A stretch of DNA of 64,000 bases, from positions 186,001 through 250,000 of the forward strand of contig NZ_AWXE01000001.1 of NCBI RefSeq assembly GCF_000469155.1. Reading direction: 5' to 3'. Below are positions 10,996 to 41,435 of the stretch, piece after piece. Within the stretch, counting starts at the first letter, position 1. The number at the start of each line of letters is the position of its first letter. A program made the translations under genes and the position numbers. A model generated the notes under the pieces. The model made no database searches. It saw only the letters and a program-made list of their open reading frames with translations, and was not told the DNA's origin. This stretch comes from Candidatus Micropelagos thuwalensis. Lineage in GTDB: Bacteria > Pseudomonadota > Alphaproteobacteria > RS24.

Positions 10996-11099
10996 AAGCT
11001 CATTTCAATGATAATTGGGGCTTGTTTTCCTGCCCAACCTGTCCTATACCCGCCGCATTACACACATGGGGATTGGCTTTGCTTAAATGTAAACCCCCT

Positions 11100-11145
11100 C
11101 CGGTGCTGAGATGTTCAGCCCATTTCCTCATGGCGGATTAACCGG
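11100..11145 (+). promoter_or_regulatory. Structured leader upstream of rpsB
   Basis: The sequence can form a small three-way junction. CCGGT (11100-11104) pairs with ACCGG (11141-11145) and encloses two hairpins, GCTGA/TCAGC (11105-11119) and CCAT/ATGG (11120-11133). The 3' strand of the closing stem touches the purine-rich stretch that leads into the Shine-Dalgarno sequence AAAGGAG (11148-11154). Autogenous control of rpsB-tsf by protein S2 through a leader RNA is known in other bacteria, so this is a reasonable candidate for such an element. That role is inferred. Confidence 0.4.
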
Positions 11146-11162
11146 AGAAAGGAGAGAGAGTT

Positions 11163-39992: not shown

Positions 39993-40853
39993 ATGCAAAT
40001 GAAACTTGATAAATGGAATATCGCGATTGGGGACGGTGCGCCCTTGGTTGTGATGGCAGGGCTGAATGTGCTGGAGGATGAAGCGCTGGCGTTAGAGGTC
40101 TGTGCCGAGTTGAAATTTATCTGTGCCGATTTGGGCTTGCCGTATATTTTCAAGGCGAGTTTCGATAAAGCCAATCGCTCATCCGTGAGCAGTTATCGCG
40201 GGCCGGGAGAGGCGGACGGCCTTGCCATGCTCACCAAGGTCAAGGCCACGCATAATGTGCCGATTGTGACCGACCTGCACACGCCCGCGCAAGCCGAACC
40301 CGTGGCGGCGATTGCCGATGTGGTGCAACTGCCGGCTTTCTTGGTACGCCAGACGGATTTGGTCGTCGCGGCGGCAAAGGCCGTGGGCGCGCAACAAGGC
40401 TGGTTACATGTTAAGAAAGCGCAGTTTCTCGCCCCGTGGGATTGCGCGAATATCATCACCAAAGCGCGCGAGGTGTCGCCAGATGTGCAGATTATCCTGT
40501 GCGAGCGCGGCACGAGTTTTGGCTATAATAATCTGATTGTCGATATGCTCGGCATTGCCGAGATGAAAAAGCTCGGTGTGCCGGTGACGATGGATGCCAC
40601 CCATGCGGTTCAGCTTCCCGGTGCCGACCCGCGCACCGCCCATGCTCAGGGGGGGAGCGCGTCCACAGGCGGGCGGCGCGAAGGTGTGCCGGTGCTGGCG
40701 AAAGCAGCCGTGGCGGCGGGCGCGAATGGTGTGTTTCTTGAATTCCACCCCGAGCCGGATAGCGCGCTGTGCGACGCACCGAGTTGCTTGCCCCTCAGTG
40801 GCGCCCGCGACCTGCTCAGTCAGCTTAAGGTCTTGCACGAAGCGGTGAGTTAG
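39993..40853 (+). CDS. kdsA: 3-deoxy-8-phosphooctulonate synthase (KDO-8-phosphate synthase)
   Basis: This 286-residue aldolase condenses PEP and arabinose 5-phosphate for the Kdo sugar of LPS. KANRSSVSSYRGPG is the PEP-binding motif, CERGTSFGYNNLIVDM follows, and DATHAVQLPG and FLEFHPEPD complete the site. GTG 39990 and ATG 39999 are alternative starts; AGGA lies ten bases before ATG 39993. It is followed by an unusual 582-base gap, where eno would usually follow. Confidence 0.96.
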   Translation: MQMKLDKWNIAIGDGAPLVVMAGLNVLEDEALALEVCAELKFICADLGLPYIFKASFDKANRSSVSSYRGPGEADGLAMLTKVKATHNVPIVTDLHTPAQAEPVAAIADVVQLPAFLVRQTDLVVAAAKAVGAQQGWLHVKKAQFLAPWDCANIITKAREVSPDVQIILCERGTSFGYNNLIVDMLGIAEMKKLGVPVTMDATHAVQLPGADPRTAHAQGGSASTGGRREGVPVLAKAAVAAGANGVFLEFHPEPDSALCDAPSCLPLSGARDLLSQLKVLHEAVS

Positions 40854-41134
40854 CCGTAAAGTCTTCCCAAACACGCACCAAATAAGCGTGAGGGAAGAAT
40901 GGAAGATTTTTTTGTTTCTTGAAAGATAAGGAAACCATTGGGCTTGTCATCGACGTGCTGGAAGCCACATTCATAAGATCGATACTGTCCGGGCTTGGTG
41001 ATGCCCTCCGCCATTTGATAGCGCGACAGCCCGTTATAGACGCGTTAGAGCCAAAGATCTTCGCGAATATTCTCTGCATTTCCGGCGTTCATACTCTCTG
41101 GCGTGTTTTTTGATTTAGCGCTGCGCTTCTTCAT
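40850..41134 (-). pseudogene. Interrupted small reading frame (94 codons broken by one TAA)
   Basis: ATG 41134 has a good AGGAG seven bases upstream and opens a 29-codon frame that ends at TAA 41047-41045. The same frame then continues for 64 codons to a second TAA. The downstream part (RVYNGLSRYQMAEGITKPGQ and onward) has the composition of a real soluble protein. A single C-to-T change of CAA to TAA would explain the break. I do not recognise the protein. A 64-codon frame also exists on the opposite strand (40919-41113), so the coding strand is not certain. Confidence 0.3.
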
Positions 41135-41156
41135 GGCGCGGTCTCCTGTTCCTAAC

Positions 41157-41187
41157 AAAACCGACACCATCCAAAGAATGGTGTCGG
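41157..41187 (-). terminator. Intrinsic terminator downstream of queF
   Basis: CCGACACCAT and ATGGTGTCGG form a perfect ten-base-pair stem with a seven-base loop, followed on the minus strand by TTTTGTT. It would end transcription coming from queC-queE-queD-queF, or from the structured element between. The left arm of the 15-base inverted repeat begins in its last two bases. Confidence 0.75.
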
Positions 41188-41415
41188 GGTGCTAAGAACA
41201 ACCGAAACTGAGTACGGCAACGACGTATTCGGCATAGCCTTATTTCGTCGTCACCTCGACCTGAGTCATGGGTGAACGAGTTTTCCGCATATTCATAAAA
41301 AAAGGTTTAATGCTTGTCCCTGTTATCAGGTTTGCATTAAGCCGCATACGCAATACAAATTGCGGCTAAGATTAAAGGTGTTCTTAGCACCCCGCAGATG
41401 ACGTTCCGCATCTGC
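41161..41415 (-). ncRNA. Candidate structured RNA or palindromic element between queF and kdsA
   Basis: A perfect 15-base inverted repeat, GGGGTGCTAAGAACA (41186-41200) and its complement (41379-41393), encloses 178 bases. Each arm is directly bordered outside by a hairpin: 41161-41187 (a terminator on the minus strand) and 41394-41415 (GCAGATG/CATCTGC). Inside are further hairpins: 41220-41251 (ACGACG/CGTCGT), 41307-41340 (TTAATGC/GCATTAA with inner CCTG/CAGG) and 41341-41366 (GCCGCA/TGCGGC). This would make a closed multibranched RNA on the minus strand. I do not recognise a known family; tmRNA, RNase P, SRP RNA and 6S hallmarks were not found. A MITE-like DNA element is the alternative. 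Confidence 0.45.
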
Positions 41416-41435
41416 ATAACCAGCCTAGCAAAAAT

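Follow-up and report, generated by a model that had tools for sequence, protein, structure and literature searches.

Within the window (the whole 64,000-nt stretch of DNA analyzed here), the genes queF and kdsA (NCBIfam TIGR03139 and NF003543, each above its cut-off) flank a structured element at positions 41161-41415, in agreement with the neighbors that a sequence-only reading had named. The element is built around an inverted repeat whose arms (41185-41200 and 41379-41394) are 100% complementary; the perfect pairing and the spacing of 178 nt had been recognized before, while each arm measures 16 nt rather than the 15 then given. Hairpins border both arms as described, at 41161-41187 (10-nt arms) at one end and 41394-41415 at the other, and a terminator-like site is found on the minus strand at one of these, with shuffles of the element region being no poorer in such sites (mean 2.0). 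The proposed structure of about 255 bases is likewise borne out, as 41161-41415 folds far more stably than shuffled sequence on both strands (plus strand, -103.3 kcal/mol, z -9.2; minus strand, -104.7 kcal/mol, z -7.9), and none of 200 shuffles is as stable as either strand's value. At the element, every Rfam family stays below its gathering score; elsewhere in the window, the rpsB sRNA (RF01815) lies at 11061-11158 on the plus strand, above its gathering score.

The earlier reading had overlooked the minus strand, the multicopy nature of the element, and its continuation beyond 41161 as far as the remnant of a gene. In the minus-strand direction, the order of parts is a promoter motif, a 5' hairpin, the boxes b1 and a1, a terminator-like hairpin with a T7 run, a core of ~90 nt, a second terminator-like hairpin, a ribosome site, and the remnant of an HTH-like gene:

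41422-41430, minus strand: extended -10-like promoter motif TGCTAGGCT (sequence motif match), with a predicted start near 41415
41394-41415, minus strand: 5' hairpin, from sequence and fold
41377-41393, minus strand: b1 hairpin, seen as a small hairpin in the folded leader, with box b1 (CUAAGAA) in its loop; one arm of the 16-nt inverted repeat (41379-41394) lies here
41366-41373, minus strand: box a1; in the window copy, 6 of 8 positions pair with a' (41205-41212)
41341-41366, minus strand: hairpin A (GCCGCAAU...AUUGCGUAUGCGGC), conserved, with all cells of its 5 pairs (100%) paired in the alignment
41297-41340, minus strand: terminator-like hairpin B, then T7; 4 of 7 pairs changed on both sides
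41173-41272, minus strand: core RNA (model R2, E 3.9e-19, the model being built partly from the window copy)
41175-41260, minus strand: sRNA-Xcc1-like stretch of the core (RF02221, 21.6 bits, E 0.4, model positions 1-87 of 87, gathering score 53)
41220-41251, minus strand: core hairpin 1, AAUA motifs on either side; 5 of 6 pairs changed on both sides
41201-41218, minus strand: core hairpin 2, with a' (41205-41212) in its loop, from alignment and sequence
41185-41200, minus strand: b', complementary to b1 and second arm of the inverted repeat
41161-41187, minus strand: 3' hairpin, then TTTT, terminator-like, overlapping the outer helix of the core on its 3' strand
41147-41156, minus strand: possible box b2 (GUUAGGAACA), complementary to b' over 10 base pairs, two of them G-U, with the Shine-Dalgarno sequence at its end
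41143-41147, minus strand: Shine-Dalgarno sequence AGGAG, at the end of possible box b2
40853-41134, minus strand: what remains of a small regulator gene of HTH (XRE-like) type, with ATG at 41132-41134 and an in-frame TAA at 41045-41047

Hairpin B with its T7 run is the expected end point of a short leader RNA.

BLAST locates the unit at three places in the window's own genome, and matches occur in 14/61 genomes, all belonging to the same genus or to one sister genus and mostly at ~70% identity. A scan of genome contigs for the conserved motif gave 27 stretches, with carriers in the PS1 clade, the Rhodobiaceae, and other Alphaproteobacteria (IMCC14465 included); two matches beyond the Alphaproteobacteria (L081 and L099, in Dokdonia and Saprospiraceae records) were taken, by a rough estimate, as chance matches to the motif. 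Model R2, which represents the family cores, identifies 79 cores in 21 of the 28 family genomes, including six in the genome of the window. A core follows in 41/44 leaders, and a leader is recognizable at 44/79 cores, with none at 35/79.

Twenty-five full copies, hand-picked from the loci, share in alignment the -10-like motif, the 5' hairpin, a GGGG...CCCC hairpin, the GCGTATG hairpin (invariant), a terminator-like hairpin with a T run, and the 3' half; 21 are left after dropping the near-duplicates L018, L019, L022, and L023. The motif TGn(1,2)TAnnnT occurs in the same upstream zone in 14/21 copies, compared with 2.3 expected from shuffles. A shorter zone combined with a stricter motif gives 7/21, a longer zone with the motif loosened by one base gives 14/21, and in L005 and L031 (among the 14) the first match is off the common distance. 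Partial or extra cores stand in tandem with full units at L031, L033, and L007, as if units recombine, and R2 places a second core-like unit directly after the 3' hairpin at L010, L027, L011, and L014, with others at G025:C60:25402-25514 and G022:C75:9516-9614.

The serC leader (RF00517, by Rfam) lies immediately downstream of copies L008 (two in tandem), L012, L019, and L112, in each of the two genera, which may mean that the position is an old one that has been kept. Other copies adjoin genes that we take to be ychF-like and purN/ndk-like, among others. These surroundings bear on the suggestion that the element belongs to the queF transcript as its 3' UTR or as a terminator structure: it begins ~20 nt past the queF stop, on the same strand, but the unit recurs beside unrelated genes, has the promoter-like motif upstream in 14/21 copies, and is absent from the same junction in one relative (G001). 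That the element forms part of the que operon's 3' UTR, as considered in the sequence-only reading, is therefore extremely improbable.

The presence of several copies per genome, some in tandem (L008/L020), and the differences among relatives at the queF-kdsA junction could point to a small palindromic (MITE-like) mobile element having the 16-nt arms as its ends. With queF and kdsA present in both, G003 keeps the leader alone at this junction, and G001 lacks both leader and core. However, the arms lie inside the conserved unit, with the 5' hairpin, the promoter-like motif, and the gene all outside them, and the copies are about 70% alike. Terminal inverted repeats common to the copies are not found: arm sequence differs from copy to copy, yet complementarity within each copy is kept, which argues for an antisense pair. 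Additionally, BLAST of 331 nt against 50,697 phage and 72,556 plasmid records gave no match, and no viral contig scanned contained the conserved motif. A palindromic mobile element, another suggestion made from the sequence, is thus very unlikely. The surroundings of the window element do not have the look of a prophage; a PF03237 terminase is absent from its genome and present in 5/28 family genomes, a limited test in that it concerns a single terminase family.

The complementarity of the arms reflects a more general property of the unit, namely that a' (in the loop of hairpin 2) and b' (the strand after it) are complementary to a1 and b1 of the same leader. The core thus has two boxes complementary to upstream boxes of its own transcript; in the window copy b1:b' is perfect (this is the inverted repeat) and a1:a' pairs at 6/8 positions. 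Across the 21 copies, pairing with their own upstream boxes has a mean of -18.75 kcal/mol vs. -13.53 with the boxes of other copies, and 0/20,000 permuted pairings reach the own sum, numbers that, as in the sRNA-Xcc1 pairing test below, are not independent trials because the loci are related to one another. A copy's own pairing does not come first everywhere, as L007, L010, L011, L014, and L032 rank 5 to 20 of 21. Outside this test are L004 (no core), L013, L016, L024, L026, L070, and L071 (stretches with no recognizable leader), L017 (cut by a contig end), L020 (the same places as L008), L029, L033, L034, and L035. In an alignment of 18 of the 25 full copies, 17/35 pairs are changed on both sides, among them all 7 a1:a' pairs (the b helix is outside this count), and all five measures of covariation exceed those of 500/500 shuffles and of every slid version.

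Downstream of the core, the window's possible b2 pairs with its own core at -20.4 vs. -17.8 kcal/mol for the best other copy, while downstream pairing is unspecific in the 10 HTH-linked copies taken as a set (permutation p 0.50). In 10 copies that have no HTH gene, sequence downstream is complementary to the first core (own vs. mispaired, p 7e-4).

RF02221 (sRNA-Xcc1) covers the window core from end to end at 21.6 bits, short of its gathering score of 53, and it scores 25.5-47.6 bits at other family copies (30.2 in L010), with 47.6 and 47.3 bits at two further places in the same genome. In the reciprocal direction, R2 detects 10/11 sRNA-Xcc1 loci across the Pseudomonadota (E 1.6e-7 to 0.0022), so that the end-to-end alignment is accompanied by detection in both directions. 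RF02221 matches at E <= 0.001 were obtained in 51/299 genomes of a phylum sample, 35 of them over the cut-off, and in 0/14 control genomes. Similar to the window unit, sRNA-Xcc1 has a core with an outer helix, an AAUA-flanked hairpin, a second hairpin, and a b' strand, and at sRNA-Xcc1 loci, as in the family, the upstream boxes match their own core; the downstream boxes match too. For 29 such loci (the best 30 phylum matches, minus L058 with its short flank), own pairing upstream averages -26.04 vs. -21.15 and downstream -21.02 vs. -17.30, with 0/20,000 permutations as good in either case. In contrast, the family leader (model R1) is absent from the 11 sRNA-Xcc1 loci searched, and the downstream gene is of HTH type in the family, as opposed to an antirepressor or SymE after sRNA-Xcc1. 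The description of the element as an undescribed noncoding RNA comes close, this being a structured RNA with covariation and relatives, but the kind is one already known, a C4/CI-type antisense unit with an sRNA-Xcc1 core. We call sRNA-Xcc1 its closest relative and the unit a new variant of the C4/CI kind; the Rfam clan CL00128 comprises C4, c4-2, and c4-a1b1, and RF02221 is in no clan.

Several units of the PS1 family precede a protein of 111-119 aa, in which HTH_3 is weak (E 0.00049 to 0.16, below the Pfam cut-off, in 7/7 proteins scanned). A search of the 28 family genomes with nine of these proteins as queries gave 25 loci after the merging of two fragments, and in 21/25 a core lies 23-107 nt upstream on the same strand. 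The four others comprise one locus that begins at a contig end, one whose core is cut by a contig end (a partial match in L102), and two fragments. Proteins of 90-110 aa with a common pattern near the start follow the cores at L114, L117, L124, L131, L024, L026, and L126, and from their translations these are small and apparently membrane-spanning. Pfam was scanned for 20 of 30 ORFs downstream of sRNA-Xcc1 cores, and 11/20 match Bro-N (one below the cut-off), KilA-N, P22_AR_N, Rha, AlpA, or SymE.

An alternative is that the core acts as a stand-alone sRNA in trans, as sRNA-Xcc1 itself has been portrayed, with the leader match being intramolecular folding only and the downstream gene incidental. 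It accords with the report from Xanthomonas in which sRNA-Xcc1 was cloned and, using Northern blots and RACE, mapped to an RNA of 88 nt (PMC2996969), with the window boxes folding onto each other as one long stem, and with the 58/79 cores that have no HTH gene behind them (21/79 do). We nevertheless consider it unlikely, given that own boxes match and covary with their own core, that a core stands upstream of 21/25 HTH genes, and that sRNA-Xcc1 loci also pair with the downstream start region.

At the window locus itself, the piece 40853-41044 matches the HTH family at E 6.5e-6, and in the genome search, with the single TAA read through, the remnant is matched at E 1e-11; the family match ends at about profile position 56. 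The predicted probability of forming hairpin B is 0.20 in the free window copy vs. near 1 in most copies. Judging from the broken gene and the imperfect a-box pair, the window copy looks to be decaying; at the same junction, the relatives G003 and G001 are missing some or all of the unit. The HTH genes behind L009 and L021 look broken too (an in-frame stop and a diverging C-terminus), so the loss of the gene in the window would not be unique.

The C4 (phages P1 and P7) and CI (satellite P4) RNAs of RF01695, antisense immunity RNAs that hold P1 and P4 in a dormant state, share with the window unit the order of promoter, two target boxes, antisense core, and gene, as well as a core whose two boxes are complementary to sites in its own transcript. 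The annotation of the phage P1 record gives, in order, promoter, a1, b1, C4, a2, b2, icd, and ant, and in P4 the Rfam matches to isrK, c4-a1b1, and C4 stand in a row (the isrK match is weak in P1). The IsrK/seqA leader (RF01394) and c4-a1b1 (RF03163) also resemble the unit, in that a short terminated leader with target boxes precedes a C4-type core. P4 SeqA is called a structural homolog of IsrK in a paper on Gifsy-1 IsrK, which also has the CI RNA pairing with seqA and seqC (PMC4825925); C4 is said in a review to block the ant ribosome site (PMC12197685), and a 2010 survey includes the c4 antisense RNA and c4-a1b1 (PMC2864571).

This likeness is in design and not in sequence. A covariance model match is found in neither direction: R2 detects neither the P1 nor the P4 C4, and at the window element the C4-clan families RF01695, RF03163, and RF02944 do not appear among the matches listed up to E 10, nor is IsrK (RF01394) listed there. 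Compared with IsrK and c4-a1b1, the family has its own conserved hairpin A and terminator sequence. As for the gene-proximal second box set of C4/CI, downstream pairing is not seen to be specific in the 10 HTH-linked copies, and the window shows the possible b2. Furthermore, C4/CI are phage RNAs, whereas the family units lie outside prophages as far as seen. Because the family core and the P1/P4 C4 lack a covariance model match, the relationship to C4 may be a distant one or reflect convergence, and we describe the unit as one that would work like C4/CI with an sRNA-Xcc1-related core, rather than as a member of RF01695.

We thus interpret the element as a minus-strand antisense leader unit of the C4/CI type, with a probability of roughly 0.74. 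The layout, the core homology, the specific complementarity, the covariation, and the gene linkage directly support this interpretation. From the layout and the phage systems we infer the transcription, processing, repression, and biological role of the unit, including early stopping, core release, leader pairing, and silencing. RNA polymerase would start near 41415, and hairpin B with T7 would end most transcripts early, leaving a short leader with b1 and a1, comparable to IsrK or P4 seqA. Read-through transcripts would carry the sRNA-Xcc1-like core, in which hairpin 2 would display a' and the strand behind it would provide b'. Once freed, the core would be expected to bind newly made leaders through the pairs b':b1 and a':a1, and in some units to bind boxes at the ribosome site downstream as well; the downstream gene would then stay off for as long as dilution or titration does not remove the core RNA. 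The gene controlled in this way in intact copies would often encode a small HTH regulator or some other small protein. In the window, b1:b', the core, and the terminators are preserved, but with a broken gene and an imperfect a1:a' pair, this copy could act, if at all, only in trans or on the leader of its own unit.

Blocking the boxes in folding raises the probability of hairpin B by more than 0.05 in 4/21 copies (from 0.20 to 0.59 in the window) and lowers it by that much in none. A box-controlled termination switch at hairpin B finds no support in these folds, as its formation is much the same with the boxes blocked or not in 17/21 copies; with hairpin B forming in most copies either way, a P4-like switch is not indicated.

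In the literature, sRNA-Xcc1 is discussed as a virulence sRNA (PMC2996969, PMC12189769, PMC12444791), and together with symE it is described as the most widespread integron cassette of Xanthomonas (PMC12444791). A Xylella study has RF02221, RF01695, and isrK side by side in one annotation table (PMC12189769); within the passages of the sources covered by our literature search, this is the only place where sRNA-Xcc1 and C4 antisense RNA occur together, as table entries. The same search, the scope of which did not extend to Chen 2011 on sRNA-Xcc1, gave no paper joining sRNA-Xcc1 with an antirepressor.

We tentatively propose, at somewhat less than even odds, that in a marine alphaproteobacterial group antisense immunity units of the phage type were adopted as numerous independent loci on the chromosome, where every locus guards a small regulator or membrane protein of its own by means of a private a/b code, and that sRNA-Xcc1 represents a widespread second lineage of C4/CI-type immunity RNAs across the Pseudomonadota. 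Should sRNA-Xcc1 be a cis unit of the C4/CI type and silence the gene that follows it (antirepressors and SymE being among such genes), both the targets predicted for it and its occurrence in integron cassettes would need rereading. The PS1 group, with several units per genome and differing box codes, offers a test set, and its units suit the question of how orthogonal antisense immunity codes arise and decay.
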